Of a stretch of 64,000 nucleotides of DNA, positions 2,447-10,983 are shown piece after piece. Positions within the stretch are counted from its first letter, which is position 1. Each line of letters begins with the position of its first letter. The position numbers and the translations under genes are program-made. This DNA is from Thiorhodococcus drewsii AZ1 (GTDB taxonomy: Bacteria > Pseudomonadota > Gammaproteobacteria > Chromatiales > Chromatiaceae), in NCBI RefSeq assembly GCF_000224065.1, contig NZ_AFWT01000004.1:62001-126000 (forward strand), read 5' to 3'. The notes beneath the pieces are model-generated. The model was not told the origin of the DNA. It saw nothing but the letters and a program-made list of their open reading frames with translations, and ran no database searches.

Positions 2447-3484
2447 ATGCTACAAGAATTCGACCGACTGCCCGAAGGACTCCTGGATTGCGACAGCCGC
2501 CAACTGGCCGAGCAGCTAGGTATGCCCACCCTCATCCATCTCTCCGGCGCCCGAGAGCCCGCGCTCTTCGTCTCGGTGCTCATGCACGGAAACGAAACGG
2601 TCGGCTGGGATGCCATGCGCGAGCTCTTGCGCGACCGCCTGACGCGATTCGGCGAGCTGCGTCTGCCGCGTTCGCTGAGCCTCTTTATCGGCAACGTCAC
2701 GGCAGCCGCCTGTGGCGTACGCCATCTTCCCGGACAACCAGACTACAACCGGGTGTGGCCAGGCAGCGACCTGGAACCCTGCATCGAGCAGGAACTCATG
2801 GCCCGGGTCACGGAGATCATGCGCCAACGGGGCATCTTCGCCAGTCTGGACCTGCACAACAACACCGGCATCAACCCGCATTACGCCTGCGTCAACCGGG
2901 TCGAAAATCCGTTTCTTCGACTCGCGATGCTCTTCGGCCGAACCCTGGTCTATTTCACCCGCCCCACCGGCGTCCAGTCGATAGCCATGGCAGAGCTCTG
3001 TCCGGCGGTCACGGTGGAATGCGGCAAGGTCGGCGATCGGCAGGGCATCGAGCACGCGCGGCGTTTCGTCGATGCGGCGCTGCATCTGACCGAGCTGCCC
3101 GATCATCCGGTCAAGCCCCAGGATATCGACCTCTTCCATACCGTCGCACGCGTGAAGGTCCCGGAGACGGTGCGCTTCGGTTTCTCACCGGCCGATGCGG
3201 ACCTGCTGCTAGACCCGGAGCTGGAGCGATTCAATTTCCGAGAGCTACCGCGCGGAACGCCCTTCGCCAGGCTGCGCAACGGCGAGGTCCGTGGGTTCGA
3301 GGTACGGGATACGGAGGGAGCGGATGTCGGCGAGCGCTATTTCCGCATCGAGGATGGCGAGATCCGTCTGCGACGGCCCATGATGCCCTCCATGCTCACG
3401 CTCGACGAGACCGTCATCCGTCAGGATTGTCTCTGCTACCTGATGGAGCGCTACGCGGGAGGGCTTCCAAAACTCAGCCGATGA
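2447..3484 (+). CDS. M14-type succinylglutamate desuccinylase/aspartoacylase family enzyme
   Basis: 345 residues from the ATG at 2447. The frame is open further upstream to 2282 but that would overlap the deacetylase by 155 bp, and the family core begins shortly after 2447. Zinc-site motifs are visible: LMHGNET (His and Glu ligands), DLHNNTG (third ligand) and VECGK with the likely catalytic Glu. Members hydrolyse N-acyl amino acids or related amides; the substrate here cannot be told. Its stop overlaps the stop of convergent lipA by 11 bp. Confidence 0.75.
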
Positions 3485-4454
3485 CCTCGCCGGCCTGCTG
3501 GTCGGCATGGTAGGAAGAGCGCACCATGGCACCGCTGGCGACGTTGACGAAGCCCATGCGCTCGCCTTCGACGCGCAATGCCTCGAACTCGTCCGGAGTC
3601 CAATAGCGCGCCACGGGGAGATGATCGCGCGACGGTTGCAGGTATTGCCCGAGAGTCAGCATCTCGCAGCCGTGCGCGCGCAGGTCGCGCATCACCTCCA
3701 ACACCTCGTCGCGCTCCTCGCCGAGCCCCAGCATGATTCCCGATTTGGTCGGGACTCCTGGATAGCGTTCCTTGAATGCCTTGAGCAGACCCAAAGAACC
3801 GGCATAGTCGGCACCGGGACGTGCCTGGCGATAGAGCCTGGGCACCGTCTCCAGATTGTGATTGAAGACGTCGGGCAGCGCGCCCTCTCCGGCGAAGCAG
3901 TCCAAAGCGATCGCTTCCCGACCGCGGAAGTCCGGAACCAGGATTTCCAGACGCGTTTCTGGATTCCTGACCCGCACGGCGCGCAGACAGTCCGCGAAAT
4001 GTCCGGCCCCGCCATCGCGCAGATCGTCGCGGTCGACCGAGGTGATGACCACATAACGAAGCCCCATCAGGGCGACCGATTCGGCCAGATGCTCGGCCTC
4101 TTCGGTGTCGACCGGACTCGGCCGGCCGTGGGCCACGTCGCAGAATGGACAACGCCGCGTGCAGACGTCGCCGAGGATCATGAAGGTGGCAGTGCCATGA
4201 TTGAAGCACTCGCCCAGATTGGGGCACATGGCCTCCTCGCAGACGGTCGCGAGCTTGGCCTCGCGCAACAGACGCTTGATGCGCTGCACGCCCGGCCCGA
4301 CCGGCGCCTTGGCGCGGATCCAGCTCGGTTTGCGTAGCGGCTCGACGGAAGGCACAACCTTGACCGGAATGCGGGAGAGCTTGTCCTTACCGCGTTGATG
4401 GGTCTCGGGGTTCGCCCGCGAGGGCGCATTCAAGGTCGGTCGTTCTTCGGACAT
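3474..4454 (-). CDS. lipA: Lipoyl synthase
   Basis: Radical-SAM enzyme that inserts two sulfurs into octanoyl groups on lipoyl domains. The auxiliary-cluster pattern [12 protein letters not shown] and the radical-SAM motif CTRRCPFC are both present and correctly spaced. I choose the ATG at 4454 (326 residues, normal family length); an upstream in-frame ATG at 4541 would add 29 residues with no family similarity. It is the last gene of a minus-strand run yjbQ-RLP-idi-lipA, with a 107-bp gap to idi. lipB is not in the window. Confidence 0.95.
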
Positions 4455-4561
4455 GGATGGCCTGGATAGCGGATCTTGGATGCCCCTGAAGATGGGGATG
4501 ACGGACCCGAATCGGGATGGGCGAGAGAGGAGGTCACCCAAACTCCGATCCGGCCGGGAAC

Positions 4562-5134
4562 TCAGTTGGGGAAGAGTCGCTCGATCAGCAGATGGAACCA
4601 GGGCGTGAACCAGTCGGGATGCATCCGCAGGGCGCGCCGAATCGCTGGGATGGACATCCAGCGCCAGGCACCGATTTCGGAGGGGTCGGGACGGGGATCG
4701 CCCGCGTGGACGCCATAGAAAATGTGCAGATATTCATGCTCGATCAGCCCTGAAGACCGGTCCTCGGCCCGATACAGCATCTGCTCGTGCTCGGCGAGCG
4801 GAACGCGAATGCCGAATTCCTCCTTCAGACGTCGCCCGGCCGCTACCGAGGTCGATTCCTCCGGGCGCGGATGGCCGCAGCAGGTGTTGGACCAGCGGGT
4901 CGCAAAGTGATATTTGCAGTCCGCGCGACGCTGCAGCAACAGACGATCCTCGGCATCGAACACCAGGATGGAAAAGGCGCGATGCAGCTGACCTTCGCGA
5001 TGCGCCTCGAACTTGCCCGCCGTTCCCAGAGGGAGGTCCTGCTCATCGACCAGGATCAGCTGTTCCAGAGACTCTTGCTGGCTGAGCCGTTCGAGCTCGT
5101 CAGCCGCCAATGGTGGAACGATTCTGGCGCTCAC
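4562..5134 (-). CDS. idi: Isopentenyl-diphosphate delta-isomerase, type I
   Basis: 190 residues. It interconverts isopentenyl and dimethylallyl diphosphate, the entry point to carotenoids, quinones and the bacteriochlorophyll tail. The catalytic cysteine motif SNTCCGHP, the Nudix-like EEFGI segment and the EHEYLHIF motif with the catalytic Glu are all visible. Type I (Nudix-fold, metal-dependent) is clear from these. It lies 43 bp downstream of the RuBisCO-like gene on the same strand, close to the photosynthesis cluster, which fits a role in pigment supply. Confidence 0.95.
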
Positions 5135-5177
5135 GACTCACCCCCAGTGTCTTGACCTTCGAATCGACCGGTCGCCA

Positions 5178-6482
5178 TCACGATCGGCGACCCCCAAATG
5201 CCGTCATGGCGGCCTCCAGTTCAGTATGTGTCTTCGCCCGCTCATCGAGCGACACGCCCGCGACAATGGCGTCCCAGGCCTGCCGAATGCTCTTGGCACC
5301 CCCCTGGGGCCCCATTGGATGCCCGAAGACGCCGCGACCGGGAACGAAACCGAAATCGACCGTCCCGACCTTGTCGTGGAGGGTCTTCAGCGTCCCCGCC
5401 CAGTCACTGCCACCGGGCACCGGCAGGCTGCGCTTCAACGACCCCATCGGCCCCAGACAGGCATCGACATTGGCCAGCACCTCCTCATCGGAGGTATGCA
5501 TGCGCTCGCCAAAGCCCGGCATGATGATGGAGTCGAATCCAGCCAAGCGCTGTAGTTTGGAAAAGACCTGCGAATGGATGCCAAAGTTCCCCAACCGACT
5601 GAAGGGCGCAATGAAGGGAAAATGGGCGATCAGCGGAACGCGCGCATGCTTACGCAGCATTCTGACCGCGCTCAAACCGACCGGCATGGCATTGATCAGC
5701 AGGGCGTTGGCGCCGTTTGCGACCGCAAGGTCGTGCTGTTCGATGAGACGATCCACCTCGTCGGTGATGTTGGCGAGATAGATCTTCGGGGTTCCGGTCT
5801 CGACCTCGGCGCGACGCCGAGCCTCGCCGAGCAGACGCGAGCGTTCCTGCAGCGGACACCAATCGGTATCCCCCAGCATCTCGTCGTCCTTGGCGATGTC
5901 CAGGCCGCCGAGCCAGCTCTGATAACCGAGATCGCTGAAGACATCGGGCGGCAAACCGATGTTGGGCTTGATGACACCGAAGAAAATGGGACGATCGTAG
6001 GCCTGAAGCATGTCCCGAATACCCTCCACGCCAAATCTCGGTCCCTCGAAATGGGCGAGATAGGCGTCCGGGAAATGGACATCCAGCAGCTTGACCACGG
6101 CGGCGCCCGGCGAGAAGAAGGTCCCCTCGCCGCATACGGCGCTCAATAGGTTCGGGATGCGCGGACCGAAATTGCCATGCGGATGGGCGATGGTCACCCG
6201 ACAGGCGTGCACCGGCTCGCCTTTGGCGTTGCCGATACCGTAGCTGAAGTCAGGCTGCGTACCCAGCACCTCCAAGCCGATGACCCGGGCGCCGAATCGC
6301 GGCCTCAGATCCTCGTTCGAACCGACCCGACGCCACTGCGCGGTCGATTGCTCGGCACAAAAATGCGCGGCGGCAAGCTCAGGATCTCCGACGCACTCCA
6401 GATAGTATTCGAGTTTGATATAGGCGTCGGAGTCCAACGCCTGCGGATCGGCGAAGAATCCCGCCCAATCACTCTCTTGCAT
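5178..6482 (-). CDS. RuBisCO-like protein (form IV)
   Basis: 434 residues with the RuBisCO large-chain fold. GVIKPNIGL keeps the first active-site lysine (spinach K175) but has Asn where K177 should be. [10 protein letters not shown] keeps the carbamylated lysine and the metal-binding Asp/Glu. The loop-6 region reads [13 protein letters not shown] and lacks the essential K334, and the HR substrate-binding pair is replaced within [10 protein letters not shown]. It therefore cannot be a normal carboxylase and fits form IV, most like the group found in Chlorobium and Allochromatium. Characterised relatives act in sulfur or methionine-salvage chemistry. It begins 3 bp after the yjbQ-family stop codon, so the two are very likely co-expressed. 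Confidence 0.93.
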
Positions 6483-6485
6483 GCC

Positions 6486-6914
6486 TCAGGATTCCCCTGC
6501 GATCTGGATTCTCAGCAGCCGCTGGTCGCGTGGACCATCCAGCTCGATAAAAAAGATGGATTGCCAGCCACCTAAGAGCAGTTCGCCATCCGCGATCGGG
6601 ATGATCTCGGAGGCGTTCATGAAGAGGCCGATCAGATGCGAATGCGCGTTCGGCCGGCCATCGACAGGATCCCGGTCGTGGCCGTAGCCGGCGCCGGGCG
6701 GCGCGACGCGGGAGAGAAAATCCAGCATATCCTGCTGCAGCATCGTCTCGCGCTCGTTGAGGGCGACGAAGGCAGTGGTATGGGATGAGGTCAGGATCAG
6801 ATGGCCGTTGCCGACCGGATGCGCCTTCAGCACATCGCGCACCCTATCCGTCACGTCGATGATCTGGATCGGAGCGCTCGTCGGGATCGACAGGCTTTCG
6901 CAGTGAAATCGCAT
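6486..6914 (-). CDS. yjbQ: YjbQ/UPF0047 family protein
   Basis: 142 residues from the ATG at 6914. An upstream ATG at 6956 is rejected because it would run through the puf terminator hairpin. The family pattern SSHTTAFV followed by NAHSHLIGLFM and a GGWQSIFFIELDGPR end is clear. Members form small trimers, and some show weak thiamine-phosphate synthase activity; the physiological role is unsettled. It is the first gene of the run toward the RuBisCO-like gene, idi and lipA. Confidence 0.88.
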   Translation of the reverse strand: MRFHCESLSIPTSAPIQIIDVTDRVRDVLKAHPVGNGHLILTSSHTTAFVALNERETMLQQDMLDFLSRVAPPGAGYGHDRDPVDGRPNAHSHLIGLFMNASEIIPIADGELLLGGWQSIFFIELDGPRDQRLLRIQIAGES

Positions 6915-6934
6915 CGAACAGCGCTCAAATAAAA

Positions 6935-6969
6935 ACGGGCGGGGTATGCTGAGCATTCCCCCCGCCCGT
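6935..6969 (-). terminator. Intrinsic terminator ending the puf operon
   Basis: Arms ACGGGCGGGG (6935-6944) and CCCCGCCCGT (6960-6969) form a perfect 10-bp stem. On the minus strand it is followed by TTTTATTT. It lies 20 bp after pufA3 and 20 bp before yjbQ. Confidence 0.9.
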
Positions 6970-6989
6970 CGAGTTCCTTAGTCCCAAGT

Positions 6990-7178
6990 TCACTTGGCGA
7001 CTGGCAGAGGGGTAATCTGTGCGGCAGCCTCTGCGGAGATCGGCGGACCCTGAAGGAAATCGTAGTAGGACGAGCTGACCATCAGGATGTAGTGGATCGC
7101 GAATGCGAGCACAAGCAAGAAGGCCGCCAAGCCCATGATCGCCATACGCGGGTCGAAGACCAGCCAAATCTTATGCAT
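6990..7178 (-). CDS. pufA3: LH1 antenna alpha subunit 3
   Basis: 62 residues. It starts MHKIWLVFDPR like other LH1 alpha chains, followed by one membrane helix with the bacteriochlorophyll-binding histidine in AIHYILM. After the helix it reads YYDFLQG, where alpha-1 and alpha-2 have FNWL, so the Trp that normally touches the pigment acetyl group is missing. The C-terminus is extended (PPISAEAAAQ...). It pairs with pufB3 86 bp upstream. The changed contact residues suggest a spectrally different antenna; that part is inference. Confidence 0.93.
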   Translation of the reverse strand: MHKIWLVFDPRMAIMGLAAFLLVLAFAIHYILMVSSSYYDFLQGPPISAEAAAQITPLPVAK

Positions 7179-7264
7179 CTAGATGTCTCCTGAACGAAAC
7201 ACGGGACGCCGGTGAGGTACCGGCCTCCCGTCTTTATTTCCACCCGAGGGCGGAAGCTTGGCAA

Positions 7265-7405
7265 TTACAGCCAGGGGCGCCAGAGCCAAGCCAGGATGTG
7301 TGCGATAACCACGATCCCGAAAAACATGGTCATGCTCTGGGTGAAGATGCCATGGAACTCTTGAGCTTCAGCCTCGGTCAGTCCAGTCATGCTCTTATCA
7401 GCCAT
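7265..7405 (-). CDS. pufB3: LH1 antenna beta subunit 3
   Basis: 46 residues, read directly: it begins [20 protein letters not shown] and ends [12 protein letters not shown]. The conserved EFHGIF (outer His) and AHILAW (pigment-binding His) mark an LH1 beta chain, with the WRPWL end typical of Chromatiaceae. It lies after an internal terminator behind pufA2 and forms the third beta/alpha pair. Confidence 0.94.
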
Positions 7406-7500
7406 TGAATTACCCTCAATTTCTCTTCTTCGGCCCGTTGGCCATTAACCGCGATCATTCACGCGGCAAGTAATACCGGTGGCGCGCCAGAGACAACTTC

Positions 7501-7519
7501 AAAAAGCGTCTCGGACGCT
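7501..7519 (-). terminator. Intrinsic terminator between pufA2 and pufB3
   Basis: Stem AGCGTC/GACGCT with a 3-nt loop; on the minus strand it runs directly into TTTTT. It begins 20 bp after the pufA2 stop, so it could reduce expression of pufB3A3 relative to pufB2A2. Confidence 0.75.
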
Positions 7520-7538
7520 GCCTAAACCAGCTCGTGGC

Positions 7539-7673
7539 TCAGGAGCCACTCAGCCAGTTGAAGGCCGGGCTGCTGAGCAGGATGAAGTGGATCAACAGGC
7601 CCAGCACGAACAGGAAACCAAAAATGGCAACCAAGGTTCTACGCGGATCGAAAATCTGCCAGATCTTATGCAT
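7539..7673 (-). CDS. pufA2: LH1 antenna alpha subunit 2 (short form)
   Basis: 44 residues read from the ATG at 7673: [12 protein letters not shown], one membrane helix with the pigment His in [10 protein letters not shown], then AFNWLSGS and stop. It keeps the NWL contact motif but lacks the ~20-residue C-terminal tail of alpha-1 and alpha-3. It pairs with pufB2 83 bp upstream. Confidence 0.94.
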
Positions 7674-7756
7674 GTGTATTCTCCGGTCTCTTACTGGTGG
7701 GCGCTGCTATAGCAACAATCGCCCGATCGGTCAACAACACTAAAAACCCAAGGCTG

Positions 7757-7903
7757 TTACAGCCAAGGACGCCACAACCACACGAGGATGTGTGCAACGA
7801 CGACAATCCCCGTGAACGCGACGAAACTGGACACGAAGATGCCATGGAATTCCTTGGCCTCATCCTCTGTTAGTCCAGACATCGAGCGGTTCTCGCTAGC
7901 CAT
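7757..7903 (-). CDS. pufB2: LH1 antenna beta subunit 2
   Basis: 48 residues read from the ATG at 7903 with a good ribosome site (GTAAGGAG). It begins [11 protein letters not shown], continues EFHGIF and ends [12 protein letters not shown], the LH1 beta signature. It lies downstream of pufC, separated by ~176 bp containing a hairpin. Confidence 0.94.
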
Positions 7904-8036
7904 TAGATGACTCCTTACAGATCGTCAGGATGGCTCTACGAATTCGACACTAAGGCCATTCTCACTCTCTCCGCAACCATGTCCTCCAAGGGGTCACCTT
8001 GGCTGCGGCTTCGAACCGGCGCCACGCGTATCCATC

Positions 8037-8065
8037 GCTGGCGCCACTCTGGCGTCCCTGCCAGC
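8037..8065 (-). promoter_or_regulatory. Hairpin after pufC, possible mRNA stabiliser
   Basis: Outer arms GCTGG/CCAGC and inner arms CGCCA/TGGCG enclose a 3-nt loop, 14 bp after the pufC stop. No U-run follows on the minus strand, so it looks more like an RNA decay barrier or attenuator than a terminator. Regulatory role is inferred. Confidence 0.45.
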
Positions 8066-8079
8066 AATCGGGTCCCAGA

Positions 8080-9162
8080 CTACAGCTTTTGTGGAGCTGG
8101 AGCTGCGGCCTCGACTGGAGCCGGTTCCACAGGGGCAGCCGCTTCAGGCGCTGCCGCCTGCGAGGGGCCTTGGAGAGCCGGATAGTCCTTCATCATCTGT
8201 GCTGCATAGAGCGGCTTGTAAGCGCCCTGATGGCAGGTCATACAGCTGATCTTGAAGGGATCGCCGTAGGGACCCTTACGCGATGCCGGCAGCACGTCGT
8301 TCAGAGGCCAGATGTAGTTCTGGTTCATGTCACGAACGTGGCGAATCGCATACCAGGCGGTGGTCCGCTTCGGGGTACTCTGATCCCAAGCGTAGAACGA
8401 ACGGGTGTTATGGCAGAAGGTGCAGTTGACGCCGAGTGCGTCGGAGATCTGCATCATCAGACCATAGGTCCATTCGGCTTGCTTGAGCGAGGTCTTGTTA
8501 CCCTCGGGCAGAGCGGTCTGGCCGATGACCCGAATCTCGTTCGCCTGATCGAGGAACGGAGTGTAGGGGTCGTAAGGCAGAGCAGCATAGGCCACGGTGG
8601 ACGCACCATAGTTCTGACCGGTCGGCGTCATGCCAGAAGGCTGACCCGGACCCGGATCGGTGGTCCAGACATACTTCGGCACGGGGTTGCCACGATGACA
8701 GGTGTAGCAGGTCACACCGGTGTTGGCCACGTGCTTCTTCCAGTCCGCGTTGGTCGCACGGACCATCTCGAACATCCGACGGGACACCTTCTTGGTGTAG
8801 ATGTCGTCGGAGGCCCAGTTACCCGGAACGTGGCAGTAGTTACAGCCTTCCTTCGGCGAAACCCAGGTGGTCACGGCGACCATGGTCCGGGTGAACTCGG
8901 CAACCGTCAGATCGCCGAGGACCTGGACGTTCTCGTACACGCTAGAGACCTTGGGACCGCCGGGAGCCGCAGCCGGAATGGCGGCGGGCGGAAGGTTCTC
9001 CTTGATGGAGGCCTCCAGCAACCGTGGGTTGTAGTTCTGCTGCATGGCAAGACCGCGATAGCCGGTCTGCACGATCTCTGGCGACGGACGCTCGCAGCCG
9101 AAGAGGACTACCGAAGCGACCAGAGCGACAAAGGGTACTGATGCACGCTTTCCGATCTTCAT
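8080..9162 (-). CDS. pufC: Reaction-centre tetrahaem cytochrome c subunit
   Basis: 360 residues. The signal peptide ends in a lipobox (VVLFGC), so the mature protein is lipid-anchored on the periplasmic side of the reaction centre. Four haem-binding CXXCH motifs are present: CNYCH, CYTCH, CTFCH and CMTCH. It passes electrons from soluble carriers to the oxidised special pair. The start overlaps the pufM stop by 4 bp (ATGA). The C-terminus is rich in Pro and Ala. Confidence 0.97.
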
Positions 9163-10130
9163 TGCGACACCCCCGTCAGATATGGGTTTTCAACTGTCAC
9201 AGTGCTCGGATAGCTCGGAGCAACACCGTGCTTCACCGCCCAGAGATACCAGTTCTCGACCACAGTTCCGGTCAGGAGGATGCCGATACCAGCGGTGATG
9301 ACGGTCAGAACCGCAAACCACCAAGCCCAACGGTGGATCGACTCCATGGAGGCATTGAAGCCCATGGTCCAGCGCCAGAAGATTGCCGCGCGCTCTGCAG
9401 CGGTACCACGATCGACGATCTGATCGATCTCACGGTCGCCACCAAAGCGGCTCACGGAGAGGATCGTCGCGCCGTGCATGGCGAACAGCAGAGCCGAACC
9501 GTACAGGAAGGCGATCGACAGCATGTGGAACGGGTTGTAGTACAGGTTGCCGTAACGGATCGAGAAGGCAGCCGTCCAGTCAAGGTGCGGGAAGATGCCG
9601 AAAGGCACGGCCTCTGCCCAGCTTCCCATCATCACCGGGCGAATGAAGCCCAGAACCAGATAGAAGAAGATCGCCGAAGCGAACGCCCAAGACAGGTGCT
9701 GATTCATCCCGAGCGCCTCAGCGCGCTTGTAGGTACGAACCCACCAAAGAATGATAGCCATGGTCAGGAAGAACCCAGCCATCAACCACCAACCGCCCTC
9801 AGAGAGAGGCGGAATGCTCAGACCATACTGAGGAGCAGGTGGCTCCAGCGCAAGCCAGAAGAAATGCTTGACGAACTGAATGACATTCCAGTCCACCGAC
9901 GCCAACATATTGAAGCCGATGATGAACAGGGCCACGAAACCGAAAATCAGAGACAGCGTCCCGGTGAAACCAAGGTAGAGCGGACCGATCTGTGCGTCAC
10001 CGATCTTCCCAAGCCAGTAGGAAAAAATGGGCTTGCCAATCCGCGGCAGATGGCCTTTCGGCAACGGCACCCCGGGATAAGCCGGAGAGCGTACCTGCAC
10101 GCTGGTAAAAATATTTTGATATTCAGGCAT
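9159..10130 (-). CDS. pufM: Photosynthetic reaction centre M subunit
   Basis: 323 residues, normal for Chromatiaceae. Five membrane helices are visible. Conserved histidines for the special pair and iron site occur in [15 protein letters not shown] and SIHRWAWW. With PufL it holds bacteriochlorophylls, bacteriopheophytins, quinones and the non-haem iron. It begins 16 bp after pufL and overlaps pufC by 4 bp. Confidence 0.97.
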
Positions 10131-10146
10131 TGTAGTCTCCTAGTTC

Positions 10147-10983
10147 CTACCAGAGCGGGAGCTCAAGCCACCAGTTCCACCATTCCGGCCAACCGCGGGT
10201 CCAGAAGGGTCCACTGATAACGATACACACCGCGCTCCAGAAGACTGCACTCAGAGCCAGGAACAAGCCCAGGCGATGGATAGCGAGCGCACCGATGGAG
10301 TAACCGACGATATCGCGGAAGAAGGTGTTCTCGTGCTCGCCCGTCTTCACGCACTCGCCTTCTTGCGGATTCGTCACCGACAGGATCAGCGAGCCATGCA
10401 TCGACAGCGCCAAGCAGTTGGTGAAGAAGAACGCAATCGCGAGCATGTGCGCCGGATTGTAGTGGAAGTGCAGGTACTGGTAGCCAGTGTTCGACACCCA
10501 GTCAAGGTGACTGAGGATCCCGTAGGGGAACCCATTACCCCATGCACCCAGCAGAATCGGACGCACCACGACGAGCGTGATGTAGGCGCCGATGGCGAAG
10601 CTGAACGCAAAGGGAACATGGAAGCCGATACCAAGCTTGCGGCAAATCTCGACTTCTCTCAGAGCCCATGAACCAAAAGCGCCGATGGCGCATATGGTGA
10701 TGATCTGCCAAAGACCGCCTTCGGTCAGCGGCGCCATCCCAAGCCCGTAACTGAGATCCGGCGGATTGATGCTGATCTGCCAGATGTTATAGGTCTGAAG
10801 CTCGGGGGTTGGACCGATGGTAGCGCCCCAAACGATCAGGAGCGTTCCCAGCAATGCGAAGAAGAAGCCCGACACTCCGAAGAAGCCGACGTAAAACGGC
10901 CCCACCCAGAAGTCGAATAGGTCTCCCCCTATTAGCGTCCCGCCACGGACGCGATATTTTCTCTCAAAACTGAGCATGGCCAT
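10147..10983 (-). CDS. pufL: Photosynthetic reaction centre L subunit
   Basis: 278 residues. It starts [17 protein letters not shown] like other L chains, followed by five membrane helices. Ligand histidines appear in [19 protein letters not shown] and [10 protein letters not shown]. It is preceded by a 116-bp gap after pufA1 that can form a hairpin. Confidence 0.97.

Follow-up and report, generated by a model that had tools for sequence, protein, structure and literature searches.

A YjbQ-family protein as near-constant partner of the IV-Photo RuBisCO-like protein, with isoprenoid genes as recurrent neighbours

In anoxygenic phototrophic bacteria, the gene for the RuBisCO-like protein (RLP) of the IV-Photo type is accompanied almost without exception by a gene for one particular kind of YjbQ protein, designated YjbQ-P below, and the isoprenoid genes dxs and idi recur in the neighbourhood of the two. 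This near-obligate pairing and its dxs/idi neighbourhood are new here. The tight partner of the Photo RLP is yjbQ, not idi, and a coupling of the two genes can be regarded as very likely. To our knowledge YjbQ proteins, which are found in bacteria as well as archaea, have no settled role. The function of the Photo RLP was still unknown at the time of a 2018 study on R. palustris (PMC5893883). With the pair tied to phototrophy and to dxs and idi, the question of what each of these two orphan proteins does becomes a single one that can be tested. No mention of YjbQ together with RuBisCO-like proteins was found in the literature searched; older papers on RLP gene neighbourhoods lay outside this search, and an earlier notice is possible.

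The locus in Thiorhodococcus drewsii AZ1 and its RLP

The pair was analyzed starting from a stretch of 64,000 nucleotides (the window) of the T. drewsii AZ1 genome, which comprises 5.5 Mb in 141 contigs. On the minus strand of the window the gene order is bchY, bchZ, pufL, pufM, pufC, two small LH1-like gene pairs, yjbQ, the RLP gene, idi and lipA. Families were assigned by Pfam and NCBIfam profiles, and sequence matches in related loci are consistent with the names given to the puf and bch genes. The features are:

8080-10983, minus strand: pufC, pufM and pufL (ORFs and Photo_RC matches)
6990-7178, minus strand: pufA (LH1 alpha), the last puf gene upstream of yjbQ (ORF MHKIWLVFDPRMAIMG..., identified by eye)
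6926-6970, minus strand: terminator-like hairpin (6934-6970) with U-rich tail (fold -29.6 kcal/mol, z -3.35)
6486-6914, minus strand: yjbQ of the RLP-linked clade (YjbQ-P), 142 aa (PF01894 110 bits, TIGR00149 98 bits)
5178-6482, minus strand: IV-Photo RuBisCO-like protein, 434 aa (PF00016, RuBisCO_large, 179 bits; 2qyg 680 bits)
4562-5134, minus strand: idi, type 1 isopentenyl-diphosphate isomerase (TIGR02150 124 bits, PRK03759 167 bits)
3474-4541, minus strand: lipA, lipoyl synthase (radical SAM) (TIGR00510 409 bits, cut-off 310)

The Photo_RC matches lie at 9222-9980 and 10150-10896 of the window (G000:C138:71222-71980 and 72150-72896). The score of yjbQ against TIGR00149 of the UPF0047/YjbQ family is above the curated cut-off (67.75 bits), and idi exceeds both curated profiles for the type 1 enzyme (cut-offs 105.8 bits for TIGR02150 and 127 bits for PRK03759). 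Gaps of 3 bp separate yjbQ from the RLP gene, 43 bp the RLP gene from idi and 20 bp idi from lipA. The coordinates, strand, first two gaps and family names that an earlier note on this DNA had given for yjbQ, RLP and idi were all recovered. That note did not list lipA, which extends the run and keeps its position after idi in most of the puf-linked related genera.

The earlier note had also placed the group directly behind the puf operon. This holds for the position, but a single transcript is not implied, since a strong hairpin separates pufA from yjbQ and the yjbQ group thus need not share the puf transcript. None of 200 shuffles was equally stable (0/200), and a script search revealed comparable hairpins 5' of yjbQ in eight related loci (L038, L043, L044, L046, L048, L049, L054 and L065). 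A terminator scan of the window did not return the hairpin at 6934-6970, apparently owing to the loop limit of the scan. A simple read-through extension of puf into the yjbQ group was rejected because of this hairpin and its U-rich tail.

Among proteins of solved structure, the window RLP scored 680 bits with R. palustris RLP2 (2qyg) and about 653-654 bits with C. tepidum RLP (1tel/1ykw), versus 200 bits for the next solved family. These scores place it by sequence in the IV-Photo subgroup, as the earlier note had supposed. It is about 66-70% identical to these two proteins, carries the same invariant active-site residues, and shares with the known members a phototroph-bound distribution; the protein itself does not differ from them, and what is added here is its obligate YjbQ-P partner. 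In 158-159 aligned Photo RLPs, that of the window included, the RuBisCO-equivalent residues E60, W66, K175, K201, D203, E204 and H294 are kept, the replacements T65Q, N123E, T173V, K177N, R295F, K334R, S379G and G381S are fixed, and the H327 position is I or V. The catalytic residues of the window RLP are the same as in the others. The base K175 and the Mg/carbamate ligands K201, D203 and E204, which enolisation requires, are retained, whereas the residues for carboxylation are replaced. The invariance of the active site across two phyla favours one common reaction. Arginine at the K334 position is shared with RLP1-like proteins, among which 3qfw, presumably R. palustris RLP1, and the second RLP of the T. 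drewsii genome. This second protein (locus L266, about 6986-8200, minus strand; G000:C129, about 76.0-77.2 kb) is RLP1-like with 3qfw as its best solved relative, and its gene sits directly after a transketolase that is split into N and C halves. Outside the Photo type, the nearest RLPs of the window protein are 3nwr and OiaX-like proteins (200-227 bits), not the DeepYkr isomerases.

YjbQ-P as the constant partner

The survey of RLP gene neighbourhoods across Chromatiaceae that the earlier note had proposed showed yjbQ upstream of the RLP gene and in the same orientation in 74 of 75 testable genomes of the family. One more genome (G099) stands outside this count because its contig begins within the RLP gene. 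The sole exception, G017, harbours both genes apart from each other (RLP in L109, YjbQ-P in L293); its RLP gene adjoins a coaD-like gene, and its yjbQ-P a TtcA-like gene at a contig end (names by eye). The same adjacency was found in both other gammaproteobacterial genomes (L112 and L113), in all six Ectothiorhodospira loci, in nine of nine alphaproteobacterial loci and in the one locus from Chloroherpetonaceae. Mostly a few bases lie between the genes, and in a minority of loci, several from Rhodopseudomonas included, about 30 to 1,250 bases. The remaining neighbours differ among lineages (PriA, MinC, an SQR-like gene, phosphoribulokinase, phospholipase D, acyltransferases and others), so that no larger conserved cluster keeps yjbQ and RLP together. 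An SQR-III-like oxidoreductase gene lies just 5' of yjbQ-RLP in Ectothiorhodospira and in G299 (L176, L178, L181 and L113), a possible sulfur link in these organisms.

A profile built on the RLP-linked YjbQs gave at least 186 bits in 75 genomes of the family, all of them with the RLP, and at most 138 bits with any other match. By this measure YjbQ-P is present in 75 of the 76 RLP-positive and in none of the 118 RLP-negative genomes of the family; Fisher p-values for this co-occurrence ignore the relatedness of the genomes and were not used as an argument. The distribution bears on another explanation, namely mere co-residence in the photosynthesis gene cluster of a yjbQ, an RLP gene and an idi that are functionally unlinked. 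Indeed, puf lies beside the group in 11 of 20 genera. However, yjbQ still adjoins RLP in eight of the nine genera without puf nearby, and does so in other classes and in a second phylum. Together with the co-occurrence, this makes co-residence as a general account extremely unlikely; the survey data refute it for yjbQ and RLP, and it is possible for idi alone.

In a tree of 126 sequences the YjbQ-P proteins form one clade (support 100/98), which excludes four YjbQs of solved structure and 23 further YjbQs of the genomes searched. They share with the UPF0047/YjbQ family (E. coli YjbQ; 1vph, 2p6h and 1xbf) the fold and D62, H79, H93, W117 and E124, the first four of which occur throughout the family. 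YjbQ-P stands apart as a clade of its own, with its fixed RLP partnership and an extra D-x-R stretch ahead of the NAHSHL motif, the D85 and R87 of which are invariant in 99 of 99 sequences and rare in other YjbQs. The predicted model of YjbQ superimposed on 1vph and 2p6h with TM values of 0.85-0.91, and a fold search returned nothing but YjbQ structures already known and some weak chance matches of capsid-like type, without a functional hint. Tree distances of YjbQ-P and RLP correlated far above permutations (r 0.62), but shared ancestry inflates such a correlation and it was not counted as an argument for co-evolution. The YjbQ-P of the window is the only YjbQ of T. drewsii. Two genomes of one genus have a second, non-P yjbQ about 4.7 kb downstream of the RLP gene (L051 4747-5148, L053 4815-5219), adjoining astE-like and gcs2-like genes.

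Isoprenoid neighbours and possible functions

In 13 of 20 genera of Chromatiaceae, idi is no more than 2.5 kb away from the pair; three arrangements occur, and one representative of each was verified as a true Idi. It follows RLP in ten genera, precedes yjbQ in one (g36), and is divergent at a distance of about 2.3 kb in two (g33 and g45); furthermore, it is found 5-7 kb away in three of ten g39 genomes. The grouping of yjbQ, RLP and idi is far above chance. Residence in a pigment cluster could explain part of the idi linkage, because most idi loci lie beside puf: in most Chromatiaceae idi belongs to the photosynthesis gene cluster or borders on it, and pigment reasons alone could account for its place there. 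At the g33 and g45 loci puf is not nearby, and the annotated neighbours include no pigment gene. The neighbours annotated for the alphaproteobacterial pair included no isoprenoid gene.

In Chlorobiaceae the pair is split. None of 64 loci has yjbQ near RLP, and each of the eight genomes searched harbours one YjbQ-P gene away from RLP, in all eight as the gene immediately upstream of dxs, which encodes DXP synthase. For the other yjbQ copies in the genomes searched, no adjacent dxs was found. A link of the group to isoprenoid-precursor genes is thus conserved, through idi in Chromatiaceae and through dxs beside YjbQ-P in Chlorobiaceae; the lack of a conserved idi/yjbQ linkage that the earlier note had named as grounds for refutation was not observed. 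In the Chlorobiaceae loci displayed, the genes preceding RLP encode an aldolase fused to a short-chain dehydrogenase (NF006193, 1362 bits) and an enzyme of the LsrF type (NF006081, 512 bits, cut-off 297), both matches being above the NCBI cut-offs; an SDR gene lies 3' of RLP and, in most, bchF upstream. The substrate of LsrF is a C5 dicarbonyl 1-phosphate with a terminal methyl group, which is related to 5-deoxyribulose-1-P but more oxidised; deoxyketose-1-phosphates are the substrates of RhaD-type aldolases.

That the pair is involved in DXP/MEP supply is a serious, though tentative, possibility. It is likewise tentatively proposed that YjbQ-P and the Photo RLP are two obligately paired enzymes of one pathway at or next to DXP, which would help isoprenoid supply for pigments in cells making bacteriochlorophyll and carotenoids. 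Co-inheritance, operon-like order, the tracking of reaction centres, the invariant RLP site and the idi/dxs neighbours support this reading. Against it count the R. palustris rlp2 deletion with no phenotype reported, the alphaproteobacterial neighbourhoods without isoprenoid genes and the fact that the nearest RLPs are OiaX-like proteins and 3nwr. One specific version, a shunt from 5'-deoxyadenosine to DXP that turns radical-SAM waste into isoprenoid precursor for pigment tails and carotenoids while YjbQ-P clears the wrong epimer, is doubtful. In the wider reading, too, the RLP would be an enolising isomerase, as its residues (K175, K201, D203 and E204 kept; K334R) suggest, probably acting on a methyl-terminated pentulose phosphate, most plausibly 5-deoxyribulose-1-P. 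The latter could arise via MtnP- and MtnA-type enzymes from 5'-deoxyadenosine, a waste product of radical-SAM enzymes, here presumably those of bacteriochlorophyll and cofactor synthesis. On chemical grounds, a 1,3-isomerisation of the R. rubrum type would convert 5-deoxyribulose-1-P directly into DXP, with no sulfur to strip. YjbQ-P might perform an adjoining step, for example correction of the wrong epimer or removal of a dead-end phosphate; this guess is the weakest part of the scheme. Active RLP1 forms both the xylulose and the ribulose epimer, at 3:1 (PMC5893883). In E. coli, overexpression of YjbQ bypasses pdxB, like that of HisB and Php (PMC7954711), which by analogy hints at an activity of YjbQ on small phosphates.

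An MtnA-family protein and an MTAP-like phosphorylase were present in all 30 Photo-RLP genomes checked, the phosphorylase in Chlorobi being a distant match to MTAP only. As a discriminating partner of RLP, mtnA was rejected: it occurs in 184 of 194 family genomes, and is therefore permissive for an RLP route but not diagnostic. The two upstream enzymes likewise occur in the DHAP shunt of 5-deoxyribose salvage (MtnP, MtnA, Ald2), and an aldolase/dehydrogenase fusion is encoded in the Chlorobiaceae RLP operon. However, the DHAP shunt ends in DHAP and an aldehyde, whereas the proposed Photo-RLP route would end in DXP. No RLP route to DXP was found in the searched papers on 5-deoxyribose salvage. 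Assays of single proteins and the knockout of rlp2 alone may have missed the function, as the partner and the right substrate were perhaps not included. If the DXP reading is true, the pair gives the MEP pathway a second RLP-dependent entry. If the 5'-deoxyadenosine shunt is true, the Photo RLP is assigned, YjbQ gains a physiological role, and an anaerobic waste-to-pigment loop specific for anoxygenic phototrophs is at hand.

The earlier note had suggested a link between sulfur salvage and isoprenoid supply, after the example of R. rubrum, where an RLP channels methylthio-sugar phosphate toward deoxyxylulose phosphate. The isoprenoid part of this suggestion is supported by the conserved idi/dxs neighbours, but the sulfur-salvage part is not. 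The precedent is the DeepYkr RLP of R. rubrum, which isomerises 5-methylthioribulose-1-P (MTRu-1P) in the MTA-isoprenoid shunt (PMC4958253). As in the locus studied here, an RLP in that shunt (R. rubrum, R. palustris RLP1) has a small second gene nearby and is tied to DXP and isoprenoids, and its K175 and the arginine at the K334 position are common to the Photo RLP. However, the partner there is a cupin methylsulfurylase instead of YjbQ, and the RLP is of a different subfamily. Neither the window RLP nor the Photo RLPs in the related loci examined had a cupin-type MTXu-5P methylsulfurylase among their annotated neighbours. The window RLP is of the Photo type and not of the DeepYkr type of that shunt, and T. 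drewsii has a separate RLP1-like gene elsewhere in its genome. A very slow conversion of MTRu-1P by RLP2 in earlier in vitro work is reported in PMC5893883, but in that study itself activity of R. palustris RLP2 on this substrate was undetectable, and deletion of rlp2 left MTA metabolism unaffected, with no phenotype reported and the function of RLP2 left open (PMC5893883). The MTA route is thus largely refuted for R. palustris and, as far as published data go, contradicted for the Photo subfamily; it is highly unlikely that the Photo RLP joins sulfur salvage to isoprenoids in this way, consistent as the idi and dxs neighbours would be with it.

The notion that YjbQ-P and the Photo RLP serve sulfur oxidation or the handling of redox stress, with the isoprenoid neighbours being incidental, is unlikely. 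The C. tepidum RLP has been tied to sulfur oxidation and stress by its mutant phenotype, as cited in PMC5893883, and the carriers are mostly sulfur phototrophs, among which Ectothiorhodospira with an SQR-III-like gene near the pair; yet such effects are absent in the R. palustris mutant (PMC5893883), pleiotropic mutant effects may be indirect, and dxs and idi recur beside the pair genes in separate lineages. It is also rather unlikely that the Photo RLP works like OiaX/OiaC and decarboxylates a beta-keto sugar acid phosphate, or cleaves a C-C bond in it, with YjbQ-P as a helper enzyme. OiaX and 3nwr are the nearest RLPs by score and an LsrF-type thiolase, an enzyme that cleaves a beta-dicarbonyl, is encoded in the Chlorobiaceae RLP operon, but the OiaX score is 227 against a cut-off of 700, K334 is replaced by R throughout the Photo clade, and no apiose-pathway genes were recognised in the annotated neighbourhoods. 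For a role in thiamine or B6 supply, in which RLP would make or spare DXP for thiazole or pyridoxal and YjbQ-P would be ThiE-like or phosphatase-like, it can be argued that TIGR00149 is named secondary thiamine-phosphate synthase, that overexpressed YjbQ bypasses pdxB in E. coli (PMC7954711), and that DXS, the gene of which adjoins that of YjbQ-P in Chlorobiaceae, requires thiamine diphosphate. Nevertheless, this role is decidedly unlikely: no thi or pdx biosynthesis gene was recognised directly next to the pair in the annotated loci, and the restriction to phototrophs is left unaccounted for. The thiamine hint of the earlier note refers to a weak promiscuous activity, and the annotated neighbours included no thiamine gene.

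Distribution and phototrophy

Of 194 genomes of the same family, 76 carry the Photo RLP, which is rare in wider samples: 3 of 274 genomes in the class sample (T. drewsii among the three), 1 of 398 in the phylum sample (T. drewsii itself) and 1 of 385 in an alphaproteobacterial sample (its centre genome). These three samples together added just two further loci. A genome-wide scan yielded 80 named loci, in Chlorobiaceae, one member of Chloroherpetonaceae, Ectothiorhodospira, Rhodopseudomonas, Rhodoplanes and Rhodopila. Reaction-centre genes (PF00124) are present in 78 of the 194 family genomes, 75 of which also have the Photo RLP, one of these 75 by a weak Photo_RC match only. The only RLP genome of the family without a reaction-centre match is G099, which is 76% complete. 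Three genomes (G083, G120 and G144) have a reaction centre and lack both RLP and YjbQ-P, which shows that the module is dispensable for phototrophy. The RLP thus tracks phototrophy closely, yet is not required for it. One plasmid copy of the Photo RLP was found in PLSDB. In Candidatus Thiodictyon syntrophicum, the yjbQ-RLP group is located with idi, puf and bch on a 485-kb plasmid (NZ_CP020372.1 43891-45198, G106:C3).
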